In this document: positions 2,382 to 20,971 of the stretch, piece by piece
Numbering within the stretch: position 1 is the stretch's first letter
Layout: every line of letters starts with the position of its first letter
Source of the DNA: Peptococcaceae bacterium
Lineage (GTDB): Bacteria; Bacillota; Desulfitobacteriia; Desulfitobacteriales; Syntrophobotulaceae
Direction of reading: 5' to 3'
Assembly (NCBI GenBank): GCA_012839895.1
Contig: DUML01000046.1
Location: 1 to 39,415, forward strand
DNA length: 39,415 bases
Position numbers and translations under genes: made by a program
Notes under the pieces: generated by a model
Databases searched by the model: none
What the model was told of the DNA's origin: nothing
The model's input: only the letters and a program-made list of their open reading frames with translations

Positions 2382-2492
2382 ATTATTATGCGAGTTTTAG
2401 AAGGAGTATTTTAATAAATGGCGAACAAAAGATAAATATATATTTTTAGCATTTACATGGTAATTATGGAAAATATAAAGGGAGGTTTTGTT

Positions 2493-5159
2493 ATGCTTAA
2501 AAGCCGACAACGTTTTTTGGCCTGTTGTTTGGCAGTTTTGTTAGCTGTAGTTATGTCCGTGTCCCCTGCGGTAGTTTATGCAGCTACTGACAATATAAGC
2601 CCCACAGTTTCCAGGCTGGGCGGGGTTGACAGATATGAGACTGCAGCCAAAATTGCTCAAGCAGGCTGGACCAAAGCAGACTGTGCTGTGTTAGCAGCAT
2701 CTAGTGACGCCAATCTGGTTGATGCCTTAACGGCGGCTCCTTTAGCCAAGTTGAAAAATGCTCCGATCCTTTTGACTGAAGGTAATAGGCTTAATTCGTT
2801 TACTGAAGCGGAGCTAAAAAGGCTGGGAGTTAGTACGGTCTATGTGACCAGCGGTCCTGCTGTTATCCAACAACCTGTCCTGACTAAGCTGCAGGAGATG
2901 GGGATTAAGGTTGAGGTCTTGGGCGGTAAGGACCGTTTTGAAACAGCGGTTAATATTGCCAAGAAATTTACGGACGTGAAAAAAGTTGTGGTAGCAACGG
3001 CTTGGAACAATGCTGACGCTTTATCGGTGTCTGCCATCGCCGCGGCTAACCAGATGCCAATTTTGTTGACTGATGTTAATACTGTGCCTTCGTCTGTAAC
3101 TCAGTATCTTAACGGAATTTCCGGGAAGCTTGTCACAACTTATGTGGTAGGTGGACCTGCAGTTATCAGCGCGAATGTGGAAAAAGCTTTGCCCAAGGCT
3201 GTTCGCGTCGCTGGGGCTAACCGCTACGCCACCAATTTAGAAATCTTGAAAACTTTCTATGGACTTTTAAAACCTGGCAAAGTCTTTTTAGCTAACGGTC
3301 AAAACGCTCATTTGGTAGATTCTTTGGCCGGGGCGTCTTATGCGGCTTTAACCTCTTCACCTATTGTCTTGACTGACGTTACTATGCCCCAAGAGACGAA
3401 GGAATTCGTTCAAAAATATTTGTTGGCTAACAAGCTGGTTGCCCTGGGTGGCGAAGCATGTGTTCCTACTGCTCTCATGAATGCGCTTACCGGCTATAAA
3501 GTATTTGCTGAGGATAATTCTACTTATGGTTCCGCTGACGCTTCTAAGCCGGAAATTGTGGCGGAAGCTTTAAGAATAACAGGATCAAAGACTACTGTTA
3601 AAAATTTAACGGCTAATTATAGTGTGTATATAACCGGGGATAATGTCACTTTGGATAATGTTACCGTTAACGGCAGCATCTTTATTGATCCAGGCCCGCA
3701 AGGCTCAGCTTTTTTGGAAAAGGTCAAAGCTGAGAGGATTGTTGTTTTATCCGGAGGTCAGGACAGCATCCATATTTCTAACTCTCAAGCCGGCGAGCTG
3801 GTCGTGACTTCCAGGGATGACGAAGCTTCACCTTCCACGGTGAGGGTTGTTGCCGAAAATAACTCGCAAATTGGCTCAGCGACTGTTGCTACTTATTCTA
3901 TTGTTGACGCCAACAATGTGGTTATTGGTACAGTGACTATTACCAGTCAACCCGGAGTCGAGCCGCAGGTTGAACTGAGAGGTAATTTCACCGAAGAAGT
4001 GGTCATTGACGCCAATGTCCAGGTGACTGTGGCAGCCGGTACTACCATTGCTAAGATGACTCGTAATGCCGAAGGCGGTAGTTTGGAAGTAGCCGCCGGG
4101 GCCAGCATTGAGCAATTCAGCGGCAGTACGGCCGGAGTATCCGGCTCCGGTACTATCGGCGGTGAGATCGCTGATAGTGTAGGTACAGCTCCTTCTACCG
4201 GTGGCGGTGGCGGCGGTGGTTCGGCACCAAATTATCCTAAATTTGTGAATTTTTCTACTGGAATTGATAATGCTAAATTAGCGCAGAACAAAATCGTTTT
4301 TAAGAAGCAAAATGAATCTTATGCTTACCTGAGTCAAGCCAGTATTACGGTTAACCAGGTCCCGGTCACTATGGTTCTTAAACAAGCCGGTAATGATCTG
4401 GGAGAATGGCAGTTAACAAATCTGACCACGACGGATCTCTTTACACTTGAATATCTAAATAAGTTATATCCTGTTCCCACTTTTGATGCTTTGCAGAGAG
4501 CCAATGTTACTTCCCAAGAGTTATTTAATGCTGTGAACTTTACGGGCATTCTAGAAACATTGCGCACCGCTTCACCGGCTGATCGCGATAAATTTTATGA
4601 TTCAATTTTCCCGTCACTTATTGGCATTGGCAAGAACGATGCAGAGCTTCAGAAATCCATTATAGAGGCCATAGATTTGCCGACAATTTATCGAGCTGCT
4701 AATAATAAATCCGGTATAAGAGAGGCCTTTGTAAAGGCTGCAGAAACATTATTAGGCAGCTACTCGGCGGAAGACCTCGTAGGAGCAACGGGTAATTCGG
4801 CTGAAGCCTGGGCAGCGGTTAGTGAGTTGTCTCCGGCAGACAAGAATAAATTCTTCAATGATATTAACTTTACTACCCTTGTCACTTCGATTAGAGATGA
4901 TTCGAACAAAGACGCCATCTACCAAGCAATTAATTTCCAGAGTATTTTTGATGCTGTCTATGGTAAAGGTGCTGGGGTGTATGACGCCTTTGTCAGCGTT
5001 CTTGATGCTCTAAAGAGCTTGAGCCCGGATTGTAAATCGCAACTGAAAGGTCAGGTGTCTATTATTGATCTGCTGAAAGCCATCAGCGACGGCGGCAATA
5101 TTACAGTTACCCTTACTAAAGGCGGTTTAACTACAACTTATGATGTTGAATTTGAATAA
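2493..5159 (+). CDS. Secreted cell-wall-binding (CWB2) protein with beta-helix-like stalk and helical repeat tail
   Basis: 888 aa. The start is placed at 2493, after AAAGGGAGG, rather than at the upstream in-frame ATG 2457, because it gives a clean signal peptide ending AVVYAATDN. Residues about 35-340 hold three CWB2 (PF04122) repeats, marked by RLGGVDRYETA, LGGKDRFETA and VAGANRYATN. In Clostridioides difficile such domains anchor S-layer proteins to an anionic wall polymer. A region of short beta repeats (ITGDNVTLDNVTVNGSIFI) follows, then a Gly7 linker near residue 570. The tail is largely helical, with related units beginning SPADRDKF (about residue 694) and SPADKNKF (about 780). The neighbour at 5267 is a paralogue over the first 570 residues only. 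Role of the tail is unknown. Confidence 0.9.
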   Translation: MLKSRQRFLACCLAVLLAVVMSVSPAVVYAATDNISPTVSRLGGVDRYETAAKIAQAGWTKADCAVLAASSDANLVDALTAAPLAKLKNAPILLTEGNRLNSFTEAELKRLGVSTVYVTSGPAVIQQPVLTKLQEMGIKVEVLGGKDRFETAVNIAKKFTDVKKVVVATAWNNADALSVSAIAAANQMPILLTDVNTVPSSVTQYLNGISGKLVTTYVVGGPAVISANVEKALPKAVRVAGANRYATNLEILKTFYGLLKPGKVFLANGQNAHLVDSLAGASYAALTSSPIVLTDVTMPQETKEFVQKYLLANKLVALGGEACVPTALMNALTGYKVFAEDNSTYGSADASKPEIVAEALRITGSKTTVKNLTANYSVYITGDNVTLDNVTVNGSIFIDPGPQGSAFLEKVKAERIVVLSGGQDSIHISNSQAGELVVTSRDDEASPSTVRVVAENNSQIGSATVATYSIVDANNVVIGTVTITSQPGVEPQVELRGNFTEEVVIDANVQVTVAAGTTIAKMTRNAEGGSLEVAAGASIEQFSGSTAGVSGSGTIGGEIADSVGTAPSTGGGGGGGSAPNYPKFVNFSTGIDNAKLAQNKIVFKKQNESYAYLSQASITVNQVPVTMVLKQAGNDLGEWQLTNLTTTDLFTLEYLNKLYPVPTFDALQRANVTSQELFNAVNFTGILETLRTASPADRDKFYDSIFPSLIGIGKNDAELQKSIIEAIDLPTIYRAANNKSGIREAFVKAAETLLGSYSAEDLVGATGNSAEAWAAVSELSPADKNKFFNDINFTTLVTSIRDDSNKDAIYQAINFQSIFDAVYGKGAGVYDAFVSVLDALKSLSPDCKSQLKGQVSIIDLLKAISDGGNITVTLTKGGLTTTYDVEFE

Positions 5160-5205
5160 AGAGTAAAACAGCTAAGAGTTAAACTGTTAAGAAATTTGGA
5201 ATAGT

Positions 5206-5236
5206 CCCCATTGCTAACTTCAATGGGGTCTTTCTT
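5206..5236 (+). terminator. Rho-independent terminator after first CWB2 gene
   Basis: An 8-bp perfect stem, CCCCATTG / CAATGGGG, with a 7-nt loop, followed by TCTTTCTT. It lies 46 bp after the stop codon and 30 bp before the next gene, so the two CWB2 genes are probably at least partly separate transcripts. Confidence 0.8.
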
Positions 5237-5266
5237 CCGAAAATAATAATCTAAAGGGTGTTGTTA

Positions 5267-7423
5267 GTGTTCAGAATAAAGTCGAAGTTAATAATTGGTT
5301 TAACAATTATGGCATTGCTTGTTTCTTTATTGGGCGCTGCTCCGGTCTGGGCCTCTTCCCAGTGGTTGCTGACCGGTGAAGAAAGCTCTTCACCGGAGCG
5401 TTTAGCAGGTGCCGACCGCTATGACACCGCAGCTAAGATAGCGCAGGCCGGCTGGCCGGGCACTTCTGATTATGCAGTTCTGGCTGCAGGAATGAATGCT
5501 AATTTGGTGGATGCTTTAACTGCAGCTCCTCTGGCTAAACTGAAAAATGCCCCTATTTTATTGACGAGTGGGGATTATTTAAGCCCGGAAGCGGAAAAAG
5601 AGCTGCAAAGATTGCAGGTCAAGACTGTTTATTTGACCAGCGGTTCCCAAGTTTTAAAACCGGCAGTGACTGCCAAGCTGAAAACTATGGGTTTGGATAT
5701 AAAAGTTTTAGGAGGCAAGGACCGTTTTGAAACTGCTCTCAATATAGCGCGGGAGATTGAAGCTAACCGGCCTTTCCGGGAAGTCCTGATAGCTACGGCC
5801 TGGTCTAATGCCGATGCTCTGTCCGCGGCTTCGTTGGCAGCGGCCAAAGGTATTCCTATTCTTTTAACCAATCCCGATAAGATTCCAAATGAGGTGGGCG
5901 TTTATCTGCAAGGTTTGCAAGGCAAGCTTAAACGGACTTTGGTTATCGGGGGAAGCGGAGTTGTCGGTGATTCGGTTTTCCGGGCTCTGCCATCAGCCCA
6001 GCGGGCCGGAGGGACTGATCGCTACCAAACCAATCTGGAGATTTTAAAGCTTTTCGCTAATGATATTGAGCCGGGTATTATTTATTTGGCTAATGGCGAA
6101 AATTCGCACTTGGTTGATTCTTTGGCCGGTGCACCACTGGCGGCTTTAACAGGTTCGCCCATAGTATTAACAAACGGCAAGCTGTCGGCGGAAGTTGTTA
6201 ATTATGTTAAGAAGAACTTATTGCCTAAGGAAGTAATTGCTCTAGGCGGGGAAAAGCTTGTTCCCGACAGTCTGAGAAAGGAATTGAGTGCTTGGACTGT
6301 TTATGCCGAGGCAAATTGGGTTAAAGGACCCGGCATCGGCGGACAGCAGGAAATAATTGGCCAGAACCTAAGAATAACAGGAAATAATTTTACCTTGCAA
6401 AATTCCCAGGCTCTCTACAGTATTTATGTGCAAGGAAATAATTGTACCTTAAATAACGTTACCGTCGACGGGACGGTATTTGTTGACCCCGGTGAGTCCG
6501 GTGAGGCTACTTTAAAGAATGTCAAGGCGGGAAGGATTGTGGTTATGTCCGGGGGCTCCAACAGTATCCGCCTTGAGAATACTACAGCAGATACTTTGGT
6601 GGTGACCGGGGACCAGGGGACGAGGGTGGTAGCCCAGGGCCAAACCAGAATTAATGATACTGTGGTTACTTCCTACGCTATTCTAGACGCTCAGGGGGCT
6701 CAGCTTGGTACTGTTTTGATTACCGGCAAACCCGGAAAAGCTCCTCTCGTGGAATTAAGAGGGAATTTCTTGGACTTAGTGATTGTTGATACTGAGGGAG
6801 AAGTCAGGTTAGGAGATAACACCAAGGTTAGTAATATGGAAATAAATACGGGGGCTAATATTGTTGTTCCTGCCGGGGCCAGTATCGCTAAAGCTACTTG
6901 GAATCAAAGTGTGACTCCAAAATTTAGCGGCGAAGGCACAGTGAATGATGCTAAGATTTCCGATCTTCCGGCACTTCCTGGAGGAGGCGGAGGTGGCGGG
7001 GGCGGCTTACCTACTGATCCGAATTCCCCCAAAATTACCAGGCTGAGATTATGTAACTTAAGCGGGGGCGAATTATATGACTCCCAGGATGTTGGTGGAT
7101 TCGCGAAAAGTATTGATTTAACTTCTCGGAACCCGACTGAGAAAATCAAATACATTTATGTAAGTGTAAGCACCGATTGTACTATTAAGTTAACTGTTGA
7201 GGCGCTAGGTGAAAAAAAAGAAGAAGAAAAGCCGATTTCAACCGGGGCAGAAACGGTGTTTGATATTGATGTAATTCTGGGTGATTTACAGGAGGGTAAT
7301 GACGGAGTAAGTTTGCAAAAATTAAAGCAGGTATTTGGTCCAAATATTAAAGTTCATGCGGAAATATCCCAGAATGGTGAGATTAAAGATGAATATGACA
7401 TTACAATAAGACTCCCTAAGTGA
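5267..7423 (+). CDS. Secreted cell-wall-binding (CWB2) protein, paralogue with short beta tail
   Basis: 718 aa from GTG 5267, chosen because AAAGGG lies 8 nt upstream; GTG 5258 overlaps that ribosome site. The signal peptide ends APVWASS. Three CWB2 repeats follow (ERLAGADRYDTA, LGGKDRFETA, AGGTDRYQTN), then the same kind of short beta repeats as in the upstream paralogue (LRITGNNFTLQNSQALYSIY), then a Gly9 linker near residue 580. After the linker there is no similarity: this tail is about 135 aa, mixed polar and beta-like, without the helical repeats. The pair looks like a gene duplication followed by exchange of the terminal domain. Location should be the outer cell wall. Confidence 0.9.
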   Translation: MFRIKSKLIIGLTIMALLVSLLGAAPVWASSQWLLTGEESSSPERLAGADRYDTAAKIAQAGWPGTSDYAVLAAGMNANLVDALTAAPLAKLKNAPILLTSGDYLSPEAEKELQRLQVKTVYLTSGSQVLKPAVTAKLKTMGLDIKVLGGKDRFETALNIAREIEANRPFREVLIATAWSNADALSAASLAAAKGIPILLTNPDKIPNEVGVYLQGLQGKLKRTLVIGGSGVVGDSVFRALPSAQRAGGTDRYQTNLEILKLFANDIEPGIIYLANGENSHLVDSLAGAPLAALTGSPIVLTNGKLSAEVVNYVKKNLLPKEVIALGGEKLVPDSLRKELSAWTVYAEANWVKGPGIGGQQEIIGQNLRITGNNFTLQNSQALYSIYVQGNNCTLNNVTVDGTVFVDPGESGEATLKNVKAGRIVVMSGGSNSIRLENTTADTLVVTGDQGTRVVAQGQTRINDTVVTSYAILDAQGAQLGTVLITGKPGKAPLVELRGNFLDLVIVDTEGEVRLGDNTKVSNMEINTGANIVVPAGASIAKATWNQSVTPKFSGEGTVNDAKISDLPALPGGGGGGGGGLPTDPNSPKITRLRLCNLSGGELYDSQDVGGFAKSIDLTSRNPTEKIKYIYVSVSTDCTIKLTVEALGEKKEEEKPISTGAETVFDIDVILGDLQEGNDGVSLQKLKQVFGPNIKVHAEISQNGEIKDEYDITIRLPK

Positions 7424-14144: not shown

Positions 14145-14287
14145 TATGGGTGGACAGTCCGTCATTAGATTATTAAGTAGTATTTTGGAGAATTACTGAG
14201 GGGAGATATCCGTTGTTCTAAGATGTTTATAAAGTGCTGTTCAAAGGTGACACTATATAGTATTATATGGAAAAGGGGGTGATTGCC

Positions 14288-14725
14288 ATGTATGGTATTA
14301 AACGTCAATTGCCCGAGGCTCTTGTGAAAAAGATTCGCGAGTTTTTTACGGATTATCCGCAGGTTGCCGCGGTTTATTTATTTGGTTCATATGGAACGGA
14401 GTACCAATTGCCTACTAGTGATTTGGATTTAGGAGTTGTTTTTGTTGAGGATCCTACATTTAAAGAGGTGCTGGCGATAGATGCTGAGTTAACGAGCTTC
14501 CTTCATACCGATAGGATTGATCTTATTAATCTTAACCAAGCTCCTTTAAGTTTGCAGTACCGAGTTTTAAGGGAAGGAGTACTGCTCCTGGAAAATAATT
14601 ATCTTGTCAACAGTAATTTTATTGAAAAAGTGACTAAATACTACTGGGATTATAGCATTAGTCACAGGAAGTTTATGCAGGATTATGAGGCTTCGCTTAA
14701 GGAGGCTTACTCAAATGGTAGATAA
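14288..14725 (+). CDS. mntA: MntA-type nucleotidyltransferase antitoxin
   Basis: Minimal nucleotidyltransferase, 145 aa. ATG 14288 is chosen over 14267 because AGGGGG lies 8 nt upstream. The core motif is VYLFGSYGTEYQLPTSDLDL, the GSx10DxD pattern that binds ATP and Mg. In the MntA/HepT system characterised in Shewanella, MntA silences the HEPN toxin by adding AMP units to a tyrosine near its active site. The hepT start overlaps the end of this gene by 11 bp, which indicates translational coupling. Confidence 0.9.
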   Translation: MYGIKRQLPEALVKKIREFFTDYPQVAAVYLFGSYGTEYQLPTSDLDLGVVFVEDPTFKEVLAIDAELTSFLHTDRIDLINLNQAPLSLQYRVLREGVLLLENNYLVNSNFIEKVTKYYWDYSISHRKFMQDYEASLKEAYSNGR

Positions 14726-15134
14726 AGATATTCTGCAGAAAAAGGCCCAATATATTGAACAAACCCTTGCTAAACTAAGGATTTTGCGGGAGAAGACTAG
14801 CGTTGAATTTCTAGGTAGTTTTCAAAATGTCGATGCGGCTAAACATAATTTACAAGTGGCTATTGAAGCAATAATTGATATTTGTAACCACATTGTAGCC
14901 AGAGAACGCTATGGTTTACCTAATAGTTCTGTCGAATCCATAGATTTGTTATTTAATCACGGTATTCTAGATGAAGAATTAACAAAAAGGTTACGATCGA
15001 TGGTTAAGTTTCGCAATAGAATTGTCCATCTTTATCAGGAAGTTGATGACCAGCAGGTTTATAGAATTTTACAAGAGGACCTTAAGGATTTCGAAGCATT
15101 TCTTGGAGTAATAAACCGGAAATTTCTGATTTAA
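14715..15134 (+). CDS. hepT: HepT-type HEPN ribonuclease toxin
   Basis: 139 aa from ATG 14715, preceded by AAGGAGG with 8-nt spacing inside the end of mntA. DUF86/HEPN fold: EFLGSFQNVDAAKHNLQVAI, EAIIDICNHIVARE, and the active-site motif RNRIVHLY (RX4HXY), in which the tyrosine is the AMPylation target of MntA. HEPN toxins of this class cleave RNA or tRNA. The motif is intact, so the toxin should be active when not modified. Whether it serves in phage defence cannot be told from sequence. Confidence 0.9.
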   Translation: MVDKDILQKKAQYIEQTLAKLRILREKTSVEFLGSFQNVDAAKHNLQVAIEAIIDICNHIVARERYGLPNSSVESIDLLFNHGILDEELTKRLRSMVKFRNRIVHLYQEVDDQQVYRILQEDLKDFEAFLGVINRKFLI

Positions 15135-15169: not shown

Positions 15170-16243
15170 TTAGATGCGGAAGTTTAGCCGAATAATCCCT
15201 ACTCGGACCAGGGCTTTGAAGAATATTAGGGCTAGGGGGAAGAGGAAGACTCCCAGTACTCCCATAAATTTAAAGCCAACCCAGATGCTTATTAATGTGG
15301 CGATGGCACTTAAACCAATACGTTCACCTAATATTTTCGGCTCCAATACTCTTCTGATTACTAAGATAATTAAATAGAGGATGATTAAGCCAAGGCCTAA
15401 GAAAACATTGCCCCGTAAGAAGGAGATTATTGCCCAAGGCATAAGTACTGAGCCTGTTCCTAAGACGGGCAGGACATCAACTAAGACAATAATGAAGGAG
15501 ATAATAACGGAATATTTGACTTTCAGGAATGACAGGCCAATGAATGCCAGGATAAAGGTGATGGTGCTTAAGATTAGCTGGGCTTTGAGGAAACCAAAAG
15601 TTGCTTTGCGCAAATCGCCTAGTATATAGATAACTTTGCGTTTGGAAGAATCTTTAAAGAAAGAATAAAAACGGCGGTGAATATTATCCATCTGAAAACC
15701 AAAAAGGAAAACAGCTAACAAATAAATAAGAACCAGGAAGAAAATATTCGGTATAGCCTTAGAGAGGGTATATGTATAATCCACAACTTTGGCCACCAGA
15801 TTGACATTGGTGAGGTTATGAATGGTCGACATAATCATCTGGTTAATCTGGGAGGCGGTTTCAGGAGGCAGTAAGCGAATTGTGTCTTGAATTTGCTGGG
15901 AAAGATTTAAAAACCAGAGTTGGATATCGGGACCGTTGGACTGGATAAAGTGCAGTAAGCCCAGGAATTGAACATATATTTTGTTCATTATGAAATAAAT
16001 CAAGAAACCAAAGGTAACTAAAAAGAGAATGTTGGCAATGATTATCGATACGTACTTGTTGAGTTTGAATTGTTTTGTTAGCCAATCACTAAGGGGTTCG
16101 AGAGCCAGAGCGGTCATGTAGGCCAGGATGAAAGGTACGAAGTGAGGAAAAATTTTGTAAAGACCATAGGGAATAAGTATGGTGGCGATAATGATTACTA
16201 CTGCTATAAAGACCCTTTTTGAATAATCCAATAAACTTAACAT
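15170..16243 (-). CDS. AI-2E family permease, YtvI-like sporulation membrane protein
   Basis: 357 aa with about eight membrane segments. The N-terminal pair (VFIAVVIIIATILIPYGLY; FVPFILAYMTALALEPL) and the C-terminal block with VLVDVLPVLGTGSVLMPWAI and LEPKILGERIGLSAI are typical of the AI-2E/PerM family; the layout fits the YtvI subgroup found in spore formers. GAAGGA precedes ATG by 9 nt. The substrate is not known, and exporter or channel roles are both possible. It converges on hepT with about 35 bp between stops. Confidence 0.85.
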   Translation of the reverse strand: MLSLLDYSKRVFIAVVIIIATILIPYGLYKIFPHFVPFILAYMTALALEPLSDWLTKQFKLNKYVSIIIANILFLVTFGFLIYFIMNKIYVQFLGLLHFIQSNGPDIQLWFLNLSQQIQDTIRLLPPETASQINQMIMSTIHNLTNVNLVAKVVDYTYTLSKAIPNIFFLVLIYLLAVFLFGFQMDNIHRRFYSFFKDSSKRKVIYILGDLRKATFGFLKAQLILSTITFILAFIGLSFLKVKYSVIISFIIVLVDVLPVLGTGSVLMPWAIISFLRGNVFLGLGLIILYLIILVIRRVLEPKILGERIGLSAIATLISIWVGFKFMGVLGVFLFPLALIFFKALVRVGIIRLNFRI

Positions 16244-16365: not shown

Positions 16366-17997
16366 ATGATAATTAGCCAACGTTTCAAGTTACTTTTTGT
16401 CCTTTTATTAGTTGCCTGTTTTACTTTGGGAGTACCCCTCGCCGCTTACGGCGCGGATAACTCAGCCTTGGCCGAAGTCAGGGAACTGCTCCGAAACGAT
16501 TATGTAGATCCTGTTCCCGAAAATGTTTTAAGCGCTCCTACTATTGAGGAGATGCTGAAAAGGCTGGGGGACCCCCATACACAGTACTTAACGAAAGAAG
16601 AGTATAAGCAGTTTATTAATACTTTAGACAGAGCCTTTTCGGGGGTAGGGGTGGAATTGGAGGTTGTTCCTGAAGGGGTGCTTGTAACTAGAGCCATAGA
16701 AGGCTATGGAGCGGCTAAAGCCGGCATAAAGACCGGAGATATAATTTACGAAGCAGATGGAAAATCCTTAGCGGGCAAAACTGCCGAGTATTGTGTTTCC
16801 CTTCTTAGGGGGCCTGAGGGTAGTAAAGTTCAACTCAAAGTAAAAAGAGGCAGTCAAAACTTGGCTTTTGCTGTCGAGAGAATGCTTATTGAGATGCCGT
16901 TAGTGGAAAGTGAGGTTTTGGAGAACCATATAGGCTATATTGCTGTTTATTCTTTTGGGCAGGATACGGTAGCTGAGTTTGCTGAGCATGCTAAAGCCCT
17001 TAAAGATAAAGGAGTATGTTGCTGGATTATTGACCTTAGAAACAACGGCGGTGGTTATACGCAAGCGGCTTTGGAATTGTTGGGATATTTTATTGAAGAT
17101 AAATCTGCTCTGATCTTAAAAGACAAGTCTGTTTCTGCTATCAGCTATAATGCGGTGAAACAAAACTTCACACTGGAAGGGCCTATTATTTTTTTAACCA
17201 ATCGTTATACTGCCAGTTCTTCAGAAATTGTAAGCGCGGCTCTTAAAGACCATAATAAAGCGTTCCTGCTTGGGGAAAAAACATATGGCTCCGGTCGAGT
17301 TAAAGCCTTGATACCGCTGTCTAACGGCGACTATTTAAAGATGACAGTTAATAAGTTTTATTCACCCCTTAATAAGCCGATTGACAATGTAGGCATAGCT
17401 CCGCATTTGGAGCTTACCGGAGTAGACGAACTTCAGGCTGCCGTATTCCTTTTAAAAGACTACAAGAAAGAGGCTGTTCAAGCGGCAACGAAGAATAAAA
17501 CAGGTTACCTTCAAATTAAGGCAGGAGATAGGTTTTTTGTGTCGTCATTACAAAATTTAAAAAAAGCCGAGTATTGGCAGGCCGGCCGGAGAATATTGGA
17601 GAAAGTCAAAGCCGAGGATTTAAGGCTTGGGGGCAAAGATGGCTGGGAAACCATACCGAAAGATTATTTAAAAAACCTGTGGGAGCTTTATTACCAAGGC
17701 TATATTGAAGCCGGCAATCTTCCGGAAATTCCTTTAGATAAGGTTTTTACATTAACCTTCACTAAGGATATGGATTGGCGGTCGGTAAGTGCCGATAAAA
17801 TTGAGCTGATAAACAGCGTAACGGGAGAAAGAATCGACACTAAGTTAACATTTGTTGACAAACGGGTTATGACTGTAACGCCTAAAGCCAAACTTCAAGC
17901 TGACACCGAGTACTGGCTGGTTATTCATCCGTCAATTATAGATGTCGCAGGCAAGAACATTATAGGAGGAGTGGCTATAGCAAGGACGGTTAAATAA
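16366..17997 (+). CDS. S41-family (C-terminal processing) peptidase homologue with PDZ and Ig-like domain
   Basis: 543 aa with a signal peptide ending LAAYGADN. PDZ domain at about residues 85-165 (FSGVGVELEVVPEGVLVTRA). S41 core at about 175-360, with LRNNGGGYTQAALELL and the serine region RYTASSSEIVSAALKD. The usual GKGTVQ segment, which carries the catalytic Lys and Gln in CtpB, reads GSGRVK here, so Lys is Ser and Gln is Lys. The C-terminal 90 residues (VFTLTFTKDMDWRSVSADKI; LTFVDKRVMTVTPKAKLQAD) resemble a Big_5/SbsA Ig-like domain. TAGGAGGAG precedes ATG. It should act at the membrane or wall face, possibly in sporulation signalling, but may be inactive as a protease. Confidence 0.85.
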   Translation: MIISQRFKLLFVLLLVACFTLGVPLAAYGADNSALAEVRELLRNDYVDPVPENVLSAPTIEEMLKRLGDPHTQYLTKEEYKQFINTLDRAFSGVGVELEVVPEGVLVTRAIEGYGAAKAGIKTGDIIYEADGKSLAGKTAEYCVSLLRGPEGSKVQLKVKRGSQNLAFAVERMLIEMPLVESEVLENHIGYIAVYSFGQDTVAEFAEHAKALKDKGVCCWIIDLRNNGGGYTQAALELLGYFIEDKSALILKDKSVSAISYNAVKQNFTLEGPIIFLTNRYTASSSEIVSAALKDHNKAFLLGEKTYGSGRVKALIPLSNGDYLKMTVNKFYSPLNKPIDNVGIAPHLELTGVDELQAAVFLLKDYKKEAVQAATKNKTGYLQIKAGDRFFVSSLQNLKKAEYWQAGRRILEKVKAEDLRLGGKDGWETIPKDYLKNLWELYYQGYIEAGNLPEIPLDKVFTLTFTKDMDWRSVSADKIELINSVTGERIDTKLTFVDKRVMTVTPKAKLQADTEYWLVIHPSIIDVAGKNIIGGVAIARTVK

Positions 17998-18088: not shown

Positions 18089-18129
18089 CCTCTTTTGGGA
18101 AAGTATAGTAATACATTTTTCCTAAGAGG
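18089..18129 (+). promoter_or_regulatory. Hairpin occluding the ribosome site of the SleB-like gene
   Basis: CCTCTT (18089-18094) pairs with AAGAGG (18124-18129), which is the ribosome site. GGAAA pairs with TTTCC inside, and GTAT/ATAC closes an AGTA loop. Seven T follow at 18133-18139. The structure could block translation or act as an attenuator for the hydrolase gene. Confidence 0.5.
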
Positions 18130-18137
18130 TGATTTTT

Positions 18138-18863
18138 TTGGAAGACCGACGATGCCGTAAGCTCAAGGCTTTACTCCTGAGTACGGTGATCATCCTGAGC
18201 GTTTCTGTCCAGAGCGCTGCTGCTGCACCTGAAAAATCAACCGATAATATTTTGGAAGGATTTAAAAGTTTCAAAGAGACTTTTTACTCTTTAACTGCCG
18301 GTGAAGATAATCAGGTTTTCAAGTTTATTCGCCAGGTATTTAAGAGTGGAATAAAAGAAAAAGGGTTACAAAAGACTTCTAAGAACAGTTTGGAGAATGA
18401 GATTGTATTTGTAATTGAACAGTTACCTTTAAAGGAAGTGCAGAACCGCAAACTAGCCTCCAAGACTGCAGTTAACGAACAAAACCTTTCCCGCAGTGCG
18501 GGTGCTGTTACCCGGGATGACCTGGAAATTTTAGCTCGTATCATTTATGCTGAAGCCAGGGGTGAAAGCTTTGAAGGTCAGGTGGCAGTGGGAGCCGTAG
18601 TTTTAAATAGGGTCCAACACCCTGATTTTCCAAAAACAATTCGGGAAGTGATTTATCAGCCCGGACAGTTTACTGCGGTGAAAGACAAACAAATCGAACT
18701 GACTCCGGACGAAAGGGCTTACCAAGCTGCTCAGGCCGCTCTGGAAGGACTTGACCCAAGTAATGGCGCTCTTTATTATTACAACCCTAAAACAGCGACA
18801 GATAAATGGATTAGAACCCGCAGTGTAATCCGCAATATCGGAAATCATTGCTTCTGTGTGTAA
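18138..18863 (+). CDS. SleB/CwlJ-type spore cortex-lytic cell wall hydrolase
   Basis: 241 aa from TTG 18138, with AAGAGGTGA at 5-8 nt; GTG 18129 overlaps that site. The signal peptide is LLSTVIILSVSVQSAAAAP. Residues about 45-125 are a charged spacer. The catalytic Hydrolase_2 domain is about residues 130-241: LARIIYAEARGESFEGQVAV with the conserved Glu, NRVQHPDFPKTIREVIYQPG, and ALYYYNPKTATDKWIRTR. Such lytic transglycosylases open muramic-lactam cortex during germination. No PG-binding N-terminal domain is present, unlike classical SleB. No ypeB partner is adjacent, so another wall-remodelling role is possible. Confidence 0.85.
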   Translation: MEDRRCRKLKALLLSTVIILSVSVQSAAAAPEKSTDNILEGFKSFKETFYSLTAGEDNQVFKFIRQVFKSGIKEKGLQKTSKNSLENEIVFVIEQLPLKEVQNRKLASKTAVNEQNLSRSAGAVTRDDLEILARIIYAEARGESFEGQVAVGAVVLNRVQHPDFPKTIREVIYQPGQFTAVKDKQIELTPDERAYQAAQAALEGLDPSNGALYYYNPKTATDKWIRTRSVIRNIGNHCFCV

Positions 18864-18926: not shown

Positions 18927-19009
18927 ATGGGAGTAACTTCTAGAGCAGTCCCTTCATATTATGTCTTAGTAAGATTAGAGCAGTTTTTCGACATATGGGA
19001 GGGACAATG

Positions 19010-19933
19010 ATGATAGGACATAACAGATTCGGCTTGTTTTCGAAAGCCCCCGGAAGCCTTAGCGGTCCTGGCCCAATGGGCCCGCGTCAGCTAACACTGT
19101 CACCGGTCGGAGGCTTTTCGGGTAATGGGGTGGCCACAATTGGTTTGGATAATACTTTTTCCTTGCTGGCCCATTTGCCGCCGCCTCATACTATCAACCC
19201 ATACGCTCCGGCTGTTTATGCCGCTTATCTGGTGGATGCCAAAGGGAAAAACGGTTTTTATGCCGGAACTTTAAGGCCGGCGGGCAACGGGATGTATCAG
19301 GTGAATTTCCGGAGCCCTGTTCCCCTTGTACATTACGACAAGGTTGTTGTTTCTCTGGAGAGTCCTCAAGCAATTGGGCAGGCTCCCCAAGGGCCGATTG
19401 TAATGAAAGTGAAAGAAGGATTGTTAGATAGCTTGGGACCGGTTAAGAAAATGGGCAGCGAGATGTGGGGCAGGGTTAAAGGGTTTGTTGGCAGCCGTTT
19501 GGGCGGCAAGAGCGAGGGAAGCCCGGAAGAGCTTCCTGCGGGCGACGGGCAGCCTACTTCCTTCCTGTATCAGTACACTCCCGCTCCGCCACAGGGGATG
19601 GCACCTCATGGGCCTCAGCCCCGGGGTCAGTACTATCCTGCTCAACCTCAGCCGCAAAGCCCATACTATCCAACCCAACCTCAACCCCAGAACTGGTACT
19701 ATTCTGCCCAGCCTCAAGCACAGGGCCGGTATTATCCCGCTCAACCTCAACAAGTTCAGCAGCCTGCCCAGGTTCAACAACACCAGCAGACGCAACAACC
19801 TCAGCAGGCACCAAGCCCTGAAGTTTCAACCCATTCTCCAACTGAGGTTATTAATCACTCCAGCGCGGAGCAAGCTCCTGGCAATTTGCCTCAACAGCCA
19901 AAAGAGGGGAGCACTCTTGGCCAGAGTGAGTAA
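19010..19933 (+). CDS. Uncharacterised protein with RskA-C-like domain and YYPAQPQ repeats
   Basis: About 308 aa. ATG 19010 is chosen because GGGAGGG lies 6 nt upstream; 19007 is the alternative. No signal peptide. Residues about 40-130 (YAAYLVDAKGKNGFYAGTL; YDKVVVSLES; APQGPIVM) follow the pattern of the anti-sigma-K factor RskA C-terminal domain, although no membrane segment or anti-sigma part is present. A basic stretch (about 135-165) precedes a Pro/Gln/Tyr-rich region with four 11-residue units of the form xYYPAQPQPQx (residues 207-250). The N-terminus is Gly/Pro rich. Low-complexity Tyr/Gln/Pro tails occur in spore coat and surface proteins; this is only a hint. Function unknown. Confidence 0.6.
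   Translation: MIGHNRFGLFSKAPGSLSGPGPMGPRQLTLSPVGGFSGNGVATIGLDNTFSLLAHLPPPHTINPYAPAVYAAYLVDAKGKNGFYAGTLRPAGNGMYQVNFRSPVPLVHYDKVVVSLESPQAIGQAPQGPIVMKVKEGLLDSLGPVKKMGSEMWGRVKGFVGSRLGGKSEGSPEELPAGDGQPTSFLYQYTPAPPQGMAPHGPQPRGQYYPAQPQPQSPYYPTQPQPQNWYYSAQPQAQGRYYPAQPQQVQQPAQVQQHQQTQQPQQAPSPEVSTHSPTEVINHSSAEQAPGNLPQQPKEGSTLGQSE
19628..19759 (+). repeat. Four 33-bp coding tandem units
   Basis: Units start at 19628, 19661, 19694 and 19727. They encode QYYPAQPQPQS, PYYPTQPQPQN, WYYSAQPQAQG and RYYPAQPQQVQ. DNA similarity between units is clear but imperfect. Confidence 0.85.
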
Positions 19934-20267: not shown

Positions 20268-20903
20268 TTAATTAGCTTTAAAGTGGGGGGCAAGAATGAA
20301 ATAGAGCATTAAGGCGGCTAGGGGAACTAAAAATCCAGGCATATTTTTGATCTGTTTGAGCTGGATGGTATATAAGGTGGATGCTTTGCTTGTGGGGGCG
20401 GTAAACGGTGAACTAAAAGAAATGTTAAAGGCCAAGCCACTGGGAAGAAGGGGTGTCGACTCTTCCGGCTGCTGTTGATTTTGCCGGTTAGACTCCCTAG
20501 AGGCAGGGGTTGAAGACTGCCCTAAAGCATATCTCAAAGCGTTTAAATCCGGGAGGCCGGTGTTATAGCCCAGGGAGATCAGATTGTAAGATGGGCCGTA
20601 ATACCATTTGACCAGAAAAGCGGTAATAAACTCCAGAATAACAATAATAACGTAGGCATAAGGGATTTCTTTTTTAAAGAAAGGGATTATGAGGGTTGAG
20701 GCCGGGCTTTTCTCATGGTGAAAAAAGCTTTGGGAGATCAGAAGAGATATGAAAAGAGGAACAGTATGGGGGGAATTAGTTGTGGCGTTAGAGGCGGCAG
20801 AATTCCTTACTGAATTTGCTTTGGATGAGGTATGAGCTGAATTTGCCGATGGAGAAGTGCCATGGTCAAAATTTAAGCTATGTTGTTCTGGAAACAATGG
20901 CAT
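20268..20903 (-). CDS. Uncharacterised membrane protein
   Basis: Not recognised; 211 aa from ATG 20903, which has AAAGG 6 nt upstream (the frame is open to 20942 without a ribosome site). The N-terminal 45 residues are Ser/Ala/Asn rich. Hydrophobic segments lie at about residues 50-62 (VPLFISLLISQSFF), about 80-103 (YAYVIIVILEFITAFLVKWY) and at the C-terminus (PGFLVPLAALMLYFILAP), with a polar Gln/Pro/Ser loop between. The gene ends in the 13-bp repeat tract. The YlbF-family gene lies 69 bp upstream on the same strand, so the two may be co-transcribed. Confidence 0.55.
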   Translation of the reverse strand: MPLFPEQHSLNFDHGTSPSANSAHTSSKANSVRNSAASNATTNSPHTVPLFISLLISQSFFHHEKSPASTLIIPFFKKEIPYAYVIIVILEFITAFLVKWYYGPSYNLISLGYNTGLPDLNALRYALGQSSTPASRESNRQNQQQPEESTPLLPSGLAFNISFSSPFTAPTSKASTLYTIQLKQIKNMPGFLVPLAALMLYFILAPHFKAN

Positions 20904-20971
20904 TAGTACCTTTTCCCCCCAAAATAGTTTAAACATTGACATTTTAGAGCAGTGGTCAAGGAGCTGAGAGA

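Follow-up and report, generated by a model that had tools for sequence, protein, structure and literature searches.

CTP proteases are textbook Ser-Lys enzymes, and the tricorn/CPAF-type enzymes of the S41 family use a His-type base. In CtpB of B. subtilis, an S41A protease, the catalytic triad is reported as Ser309-Lys334-Gln338, and the Q338E variant is described as inactive (PMC3808539). P. aeruginosa CtpA, also of S41A, works with LbcA. In its description, Lys327 is essential, as K327A abolishes activity, and Gln331 is nearly dispensable, with a minor effect only for Q331A (PMC11021448). The same glutamine position is called a triad member in one enzyme (PMC3808539) and dispensable in the other (PMC11021448). 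In the active protomer of CtpA (S302A), the distances given among residue 302, Lys327 and Gln331 are below 3.3 Å, except for that between 302 and 327, which is 5.2 Å (PMC11021448). In the resting hexamer, the reported distance between Lys327 and Gln331 is 9.1 Å (PMC8764530). The kinases WNK1 and POMK are unrelated enzymes and serve as an analogy only. Their catalytic lysine has moved to a neighbouring strand, and there the migration is reported as proven by structure and mutation (PMC10211241). Searches of the open-access literature turned up no description of a relocated lysine in this family.

Architecture and active-site motif of the S41 homologue

The window, which is the whole stretch of 39,415 nucleotides that was analysed, is contig C37 of a genome of 2.84 Mb in 132 contigs (98.66% complete). 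The features of the S41 gene are as follows.

16366–17997, + strand: S41-family protease homologue of 543 aa, with a hydrophobic N-terminal segment, PDZ and S41 domains and an alpha/Ig-like C-terminal part
16639–16875, + strand: PDZ domain, about residues 92–170, from profile matches and the CtpB alignment
16927–17412, + strand: Peptidase_S41 domain, residues 188–349, from Pfam
17209–17226, + strand: TASSSE, residues 282–287, with the codon of the nucleophile S284 at 17215–17217, and S286 and E287
17287–17304, + strand: GSGRVK, residues 308–313, with S309 (17290–17292) at the usual Lys position and K313 (17302–17304) at the usual Gln position
17728–17958, + strand: Big_5 Ig-like C-terminal domain, residues 455–531, from Pfam

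The translated open reading frame passes the curated cut-off of the NCBI HMM TIGR00225 prc (C-terminal processing peptidase) with 258 bits against 218.6. In Pfam, Peptidase_S41 (PF03572) scores 138.8 bits against a cut-off of 24 (E=1.7e-40), and PDZ_6, PDZ_2 and PDZ all score above their cut-offs ahead of the protease domain. The Ig-like C-terminal domain noticed in the preliminary description is recovered as Big_5 at residues 455–531 (E=1.3e-7). The CtpB-type N-terminal domain PF22694 is a weak match (21.2 bits, cut-off 27). The product is probably a secreted PDZ and S41 protein of the CtpB/Prc type.

The AlphaFold2 model of the 543-aa protein has a mean pLDDT of 92.9. CtpB (PDB 4c2c) is the best PDB match both by sequence (1.4e-48) and by fold (Z 27.4, rmsd 5.0 over 313). 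The two proteins share the fold, the serine cluster and the order of N-terminal helix, PDZ domain and cap/core S41 domain. By manual counting on the CtpB alignment, the carboxylate-loop G-x-G glycines of the PDZ domain are G93 and G95, and the gating arginine R168 of CtpB is equivalent to R148. The C-terminal region differs from that of CtpB and consists here of an alpha segment and the Big_5 domain. The S1 pocket also differs. Its wall residue, Leu257 in CtpB (PMC3808539) and Leu249 in CtpA, corresponds by manual equivalence to position 232, which is Thr in this protein and in 19 of the 22 members of the swapped clade described below.

The active-site spacing is that of CTPs. The distance from S284 is +25 to residue 309 and +29 to residue 313, matching S309, K334 and Q338 of B. 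subtilis CtpB, and CtpA has the same active-site frame. The residues in this frame are not those of either enzyme: Ser309 and Lys313 stand here against Lys334 and Gln338 in CtpB and against Lys327 and Gln331 in CtpA. The preliminary description had read the TASSSE cluster between 17180 and 17340 as kept and the catalytic Lys and Gln in GSGRVK as replaced by Ser and Lys. Both readings are borne out, and every one of the 22 family members with a readable motif has this double replacement. Among the hallmarks of S41A, the nucleophile Ser in an S-A-S-[AS]-[SA]-E cluster is present (S284, 22/22). The Lys at Ser+25 is absent, with Ser in 21 clade members and Ala in one, and the Gln four residues past the Lys position is replaced by Lys in all 22.

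A further comparison is with active-type orthologues of a sister family, f2 (for example loci L021 and L112). These are about 44% identical over the full length and have the same Ig-like C-terminus, and their motif is GKGTVQ where the window has GSGRVK. The gene order at L112 (S41, SleB-like, further genes, YlbF, GDSL, Zip, SpoIIR) is the same as in the window out to SpoIIR, which supports orthology with this active-type gene. When superposed on CtpB, the model of an active-type orthologue gives Z 30.8 and rmsd 4.1 over 314, and the swapped model is slightly poorer.

Single origin and distribution of the Ser309/Lys313 replacement

The genome sets searched contain 61 genomes around that of the window, 82 of its class, 25 of its family and 398 of its phylum. 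The phylum search covered matches under 1e-90, with a maximum of 30 taken on as loci. There are 69 distinct S41 frames with a readable motif, all of which retain the serine. In 22 of these, position 313 carries Lys, and position 309 carries Ser in 21 and Ala in one; the other 47 are Lys-Gln. Every row has a lysine at exactly one of the two positions, never at both and never at neither. The swapped rows come one each from 22 of the 25 genomes of the window's family of anaerobic bacteria. The other three genomes were left out: G003 (77% complete) and G022 (86% complete) have no orthologue match, and in G019 just the C-terminal part of the gene is present, at the edge of a contig.

In the tree of these rows, the 22 swapped sequences form one clade with a support of 100/99, present in 200 of 200 bootstrap trees, and the motif changes state once. 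This tree included the motif columns, which raises a concern of circularity, so it was repeated with residues 304–318 removed. The clade of 22 persists (SH-aLRT 97, by a quick method that gives SH-aLRT only). The Ser309/Lys313 double replacement is a fixed trait of this clade and has a single origin. GSGRVK, which the preliminary description proposed to examine by alignment as a possible subfamily mark, is found to be one, with all 22 readable family members in one clade and Lys-Gln in the 47 other rows. The grouping of the 46 orthologue rows (the 22 swapped and 24 Lys-Gln rows) has a support of only 89/76 and is drawn open. Architecture and gene order therefore carry part of the case for orthology of the most distant of the 24.

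Three trivial origins of the motif were considered and rejected. The open frame, purifying selection and the recurrence of the motif in each of the 22 readable relatives rule out a sequencing error or a pseudogene. A chance change in a single genome is ruled out by the well-supported clade of 22 members. A paralogue mix-up is excluded as well, as the CtpA-like paralogue of the same genome (L001, motif GKGVVQ) groups apart from the swapped clade.

For a wider survey, 91 genomes of the phylum gave 141 matches, of which 99 distinct S41 stretches, weighted to low scores, were compared. Ser, Lys and Gln are all present in 85 of these stretches, and 14 are without the Lys yet have the Ser in the alignment. 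The alignment of these 14 at the motif columns is uncertain, since they score only 13–59 bits against the profile. None of the 99 stretches, the lysine-less ones included, has a Lys at position 313, so within this sample of the phylum the Ser309/Lys313 pair is seen only in the window's family. The same swap may recur beyond the sampled genomes. A literature search found no relevant paper with expression or proteome data for the swapped genes.

Gene neighbourhood

The S41 gene is flanked by two genes with cell-wall or sporulation annotation.

15170–16243, − strand: YtvI-type sporulation membrane protein gene, the divergent upstream neighbour (289.6 bits against a cut-off of 198.15)
18129–18863, + strand: gene of a secreted, SleB-like cell-wall hydrolase (Hydrolase_2), which directly follows the S41 gene on this strand

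At 7 of 12 other loci compared within the family, the YtvI gene has this same position, and a SpoIIR gene also lies near the S41 gene (189.4 bits against a cut-off of 151.9). The SleB-like gene scores 175.2 bits, which is under the SleB equivalog cut-off of 236.5. Within the family, it is immediately beside the S41 gene at 9 of the 12 other loci; beyond the family, this holds for 4 of 10. P. aeruginosa CtpA is reported to degrade cell-wall hydrolases (PMC6050968), and this precedent makes the SleB-like neighbour a candidate substrate. Any assignment of the hydrolase as partner or substrate of the S41 protein is a guess.

The distribution of sporulation genes in the family is uneven. In genus g5 (G004, G013, G018, G022 and G024, 67–95% complete), none of the five genomes has a SpoIVA match and none has SpoIVB over the cut-off. 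Four of the five carry the S41 gene with the swapped motif. Sporulation has possibly been lost in this genus; the other genera of the family have SpoIVA and SpoIVB. Among the latter, G023 has no SpoIVA match and G008 and G019 have no SpoIVB over the cut-off. All three belong to genera that bear spore genes, so single absences of this kind can be gaps.

Other genes of the window were noted in passing. The genes at 18995–19933 and 20268–20942 lack a Pfam match and are part of the conserved block that surrounds the S41 gene; many of the compared neighbourhoods also contain the first. An overlapping MntA-like nucleotidyltransferase gene and HepT-like gene (14267–15134) lie between UPF0182 and YtvI and are probably a toxin-antitoxin pair; neither is found in the 12 same-family neighbourhoods compared. 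At 2457–7423, two tandem genes encode large proteins (900 and 721 aa) that resemble the clostridial S-layer protein SlpA and score far below the equivalog cut-off.

Active-site constraint and the putative position of the base

The active site of the swapped clade is conserved. S284, S286, E287, D223, R225, N227, G229, G230, G308 and G310 are invariant, and these include the N-x-G-G loop. K313, likewise unvarying, is the only lysine of the protein that is conserved in at least 90% of the 22 clade members, and no His and no Cys is conserved at that level in these rows. The preliminary description held that a conserved lysine elsewhere in the active site would count against its proposal. With K313 as the sole conserved lysine, this check favours the shifted position. 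Position 313 is also the only one that is invariant both in the swapped clade and in the 24 other orthologues with a differing residue.

Over 18 hand-picked active-site positions, the swapped clade has a mean entropy of 0.269 and the 24 Lys-Gln orthologues one of 0.222; the corresponding values for the remaining S41 core are 1.326 and 1.518. Five positions that do not vary among the 24 (283, 285, 289, 325 and 327) do so in the swapped clade. This low entropy, taken with the five varying positions, indicates an active site that is kept and is slightly looser beside the serine. In eight of nine pairs, some of them with high dS, the dN/dS of the S41 domain is 0.029–0.122, and in each of the eight it is lower than the whole-protein value; in the ninth pair dS is saturated. 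Two positions outside the motif also differ between the groups. By manual count, position 71 is equivalent to His84 of CtpA, a residue in contact with the original Lys of that enzyme. A His stands at this position in 20 of the 24 Lys-Gln orthologues but in only 4 of 21 swapped sequences. Position 73 is Glu, Gln or His in 20 of 21 swapped sequences and in one of the 24. A role for position 73 as a partner of Lys313 is speculation.

The preliminary description left two readings side by side, a pseudo-protease and a protease that uses the shifted lysine. The evidence tips the balance somewhat toward the second, a putative relocation of the catalytic lysine to Lys313, for which the WNK1 and POMK kinases offer a precedent. 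The protein would then be a gated CTP protease of the S41A type with a moved general base. S284 would still be the nucleophile and the G-G loop would still form the oxyanion hole. As in CtpB, substrate entry to the tunnel would be supplied and gated by the PDZ domain. The base would be Lys313, located on the cap strand at the Gln site of active relatives and within reach of S284, and Ser309 would occupy the site that the former Lys has left and might hold Lys313. Both changes would have been fixed by one ancestral event in the family. The likely order is Gln to Lys first, by one base change, followed by Lys to Ser. The latter would take at least two base changes, because Lys is AAR and the Ser309 codons are TCN (21/21). 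A two-lysine intermediate would retain the old base while the new one arrives; none is seen in the 69 motif rows or in the 99 surveyed stretches.

The published CtpA structures suggest how such a base could act. The distances below 3.3 Å (PMC11021448) put the Gln position adjacent to the serine in the closed-cap state. Given the 9.1 Å between Lys327 and Gln331 at rest (PMC8764530), a Lys in this slot would be delivered by cap closure. As the putative base is now on the mobile cap strand, cap closing would itself bring it to the serine. The minor effect reported for CtpA Q331A suggests that the Gln site can be spared (PMC11021448). By analogy with CtpB Q338E and CtpA K327A, both positions can also be intolerant, which speaks against relocation. 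The looser residues beside the nucleophile and the poorer superposition on CtpB, relative to that of the active-type orthologue, are counted against it as well. The fuller proposal, for which the arguments are evenly poised, is that this is the first CTP/S41 protease family with a migrated catalytic lysine. The putative base Lys313 would be oriented by Ser309 and perhaps Glu/Gln73, cap closure would tie catalysis to gating more closely than it does in CtpB, and Thr instead of Leu at 232 would shift the specificity.

A pseudoprotease is a possible but clearly less probable explanation. The base would be lost, and peptides or C-termini would be bound through the PDZ domain and the tunnel. In this role it could be a scaffold, an adaptor or an inhibitor, and its targets could include the SleB-like hydrolase or the CtpA-like paralogue. 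Lys313 would be structural or ligand-binding, for example gripping the C-terminus or backbone of a peptide. The canonical Lys is absent in all 22 members, single mutations at either position are reported to abolish activity in relatives, and some serine-adjacent residues are relaxed. The canonical paralogue L001 (GKGVVQ) in the same genome would cover housekeeping CTP activity, and the S41 fold occurs in binding proteins such as IRBP (Z 18.4 to the model). Retention of the serine is by itself weak proof of activity, since the 14 lysine-less domains of the survey also have it. However, S284, S286, E287 and the G-G loop are all invariant over a deep clade, and the new invariant lysine is exactly at the position beside the serine. 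An active enzyme with another base or reaction, namely a His-type base, substrate-assisted catalysis or an esterase or transacylase at S284, is unlikely. S41 domains without the Lys are fairly common (14 of 99 surveyed), and solved CPAF structures have the same fold (Z 17.3 to the model). However, no His is conserved in at least 90% of the clade, so the tricorn/CPAF-like hallmark is absent, and none of the 14 lysine-less domains has a Lys at 313.

The relocation of the lysine is also to be set beside an explanation by function, in which the protein is the CtpB equivalent of the SpoIV sporulation checkpoint in the window's family. The preliminary description placed the gene near sporulation genes, where CtpB-type proteases work. 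The setting itself stands, with YtvI, SpoIIR, a Germane-domain gene and the SleB-like gene nearby, and CtpB is the closest solved structure. The function fares less well. CtpB itself is Lys-Gln, and the C-terminal half of the protein is unlike that of CtpB, with a BLAST-type alignment that ends at residue 367. The gene and its motif are kept in four of the five genomes of g5, a genus in which neither SpoIVA nor SpoIVB over the cut-off is found at a genome completeness of 67–95%. The case for a CtpB-like sporulation role is weak, and the checkpoint reading is very unlikely.

The swapped clade is a variant within the known S41 family and not a new system. The proteins are over the prc cut-off and databases would label them ordinary S41 peptidases, so either answer, moved base or lost base, corrects their annotation. 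With relocation to Lys313, a natural clade that has gone from Lys-Gln to Ser-Lys, beside Lys-Gln orthologues of about 44% identity and the same gene order, would be a system for how a catalytic base can move without loss of function. A dead protein would show how a pseudoprotease fixes a replacement lysine.

Two other S41 loci were noted. The third S41 of the source genome (L003/L125, G000:C52:13485-14006) is lysine-less and low-scoring, and falls below the cut for the 69-row set. At G030:C315:3027-5446, there are two tandem S41 genes; one of the matches crosses three stop codons, and a second search gives a somewhat shorter one with an open frame.
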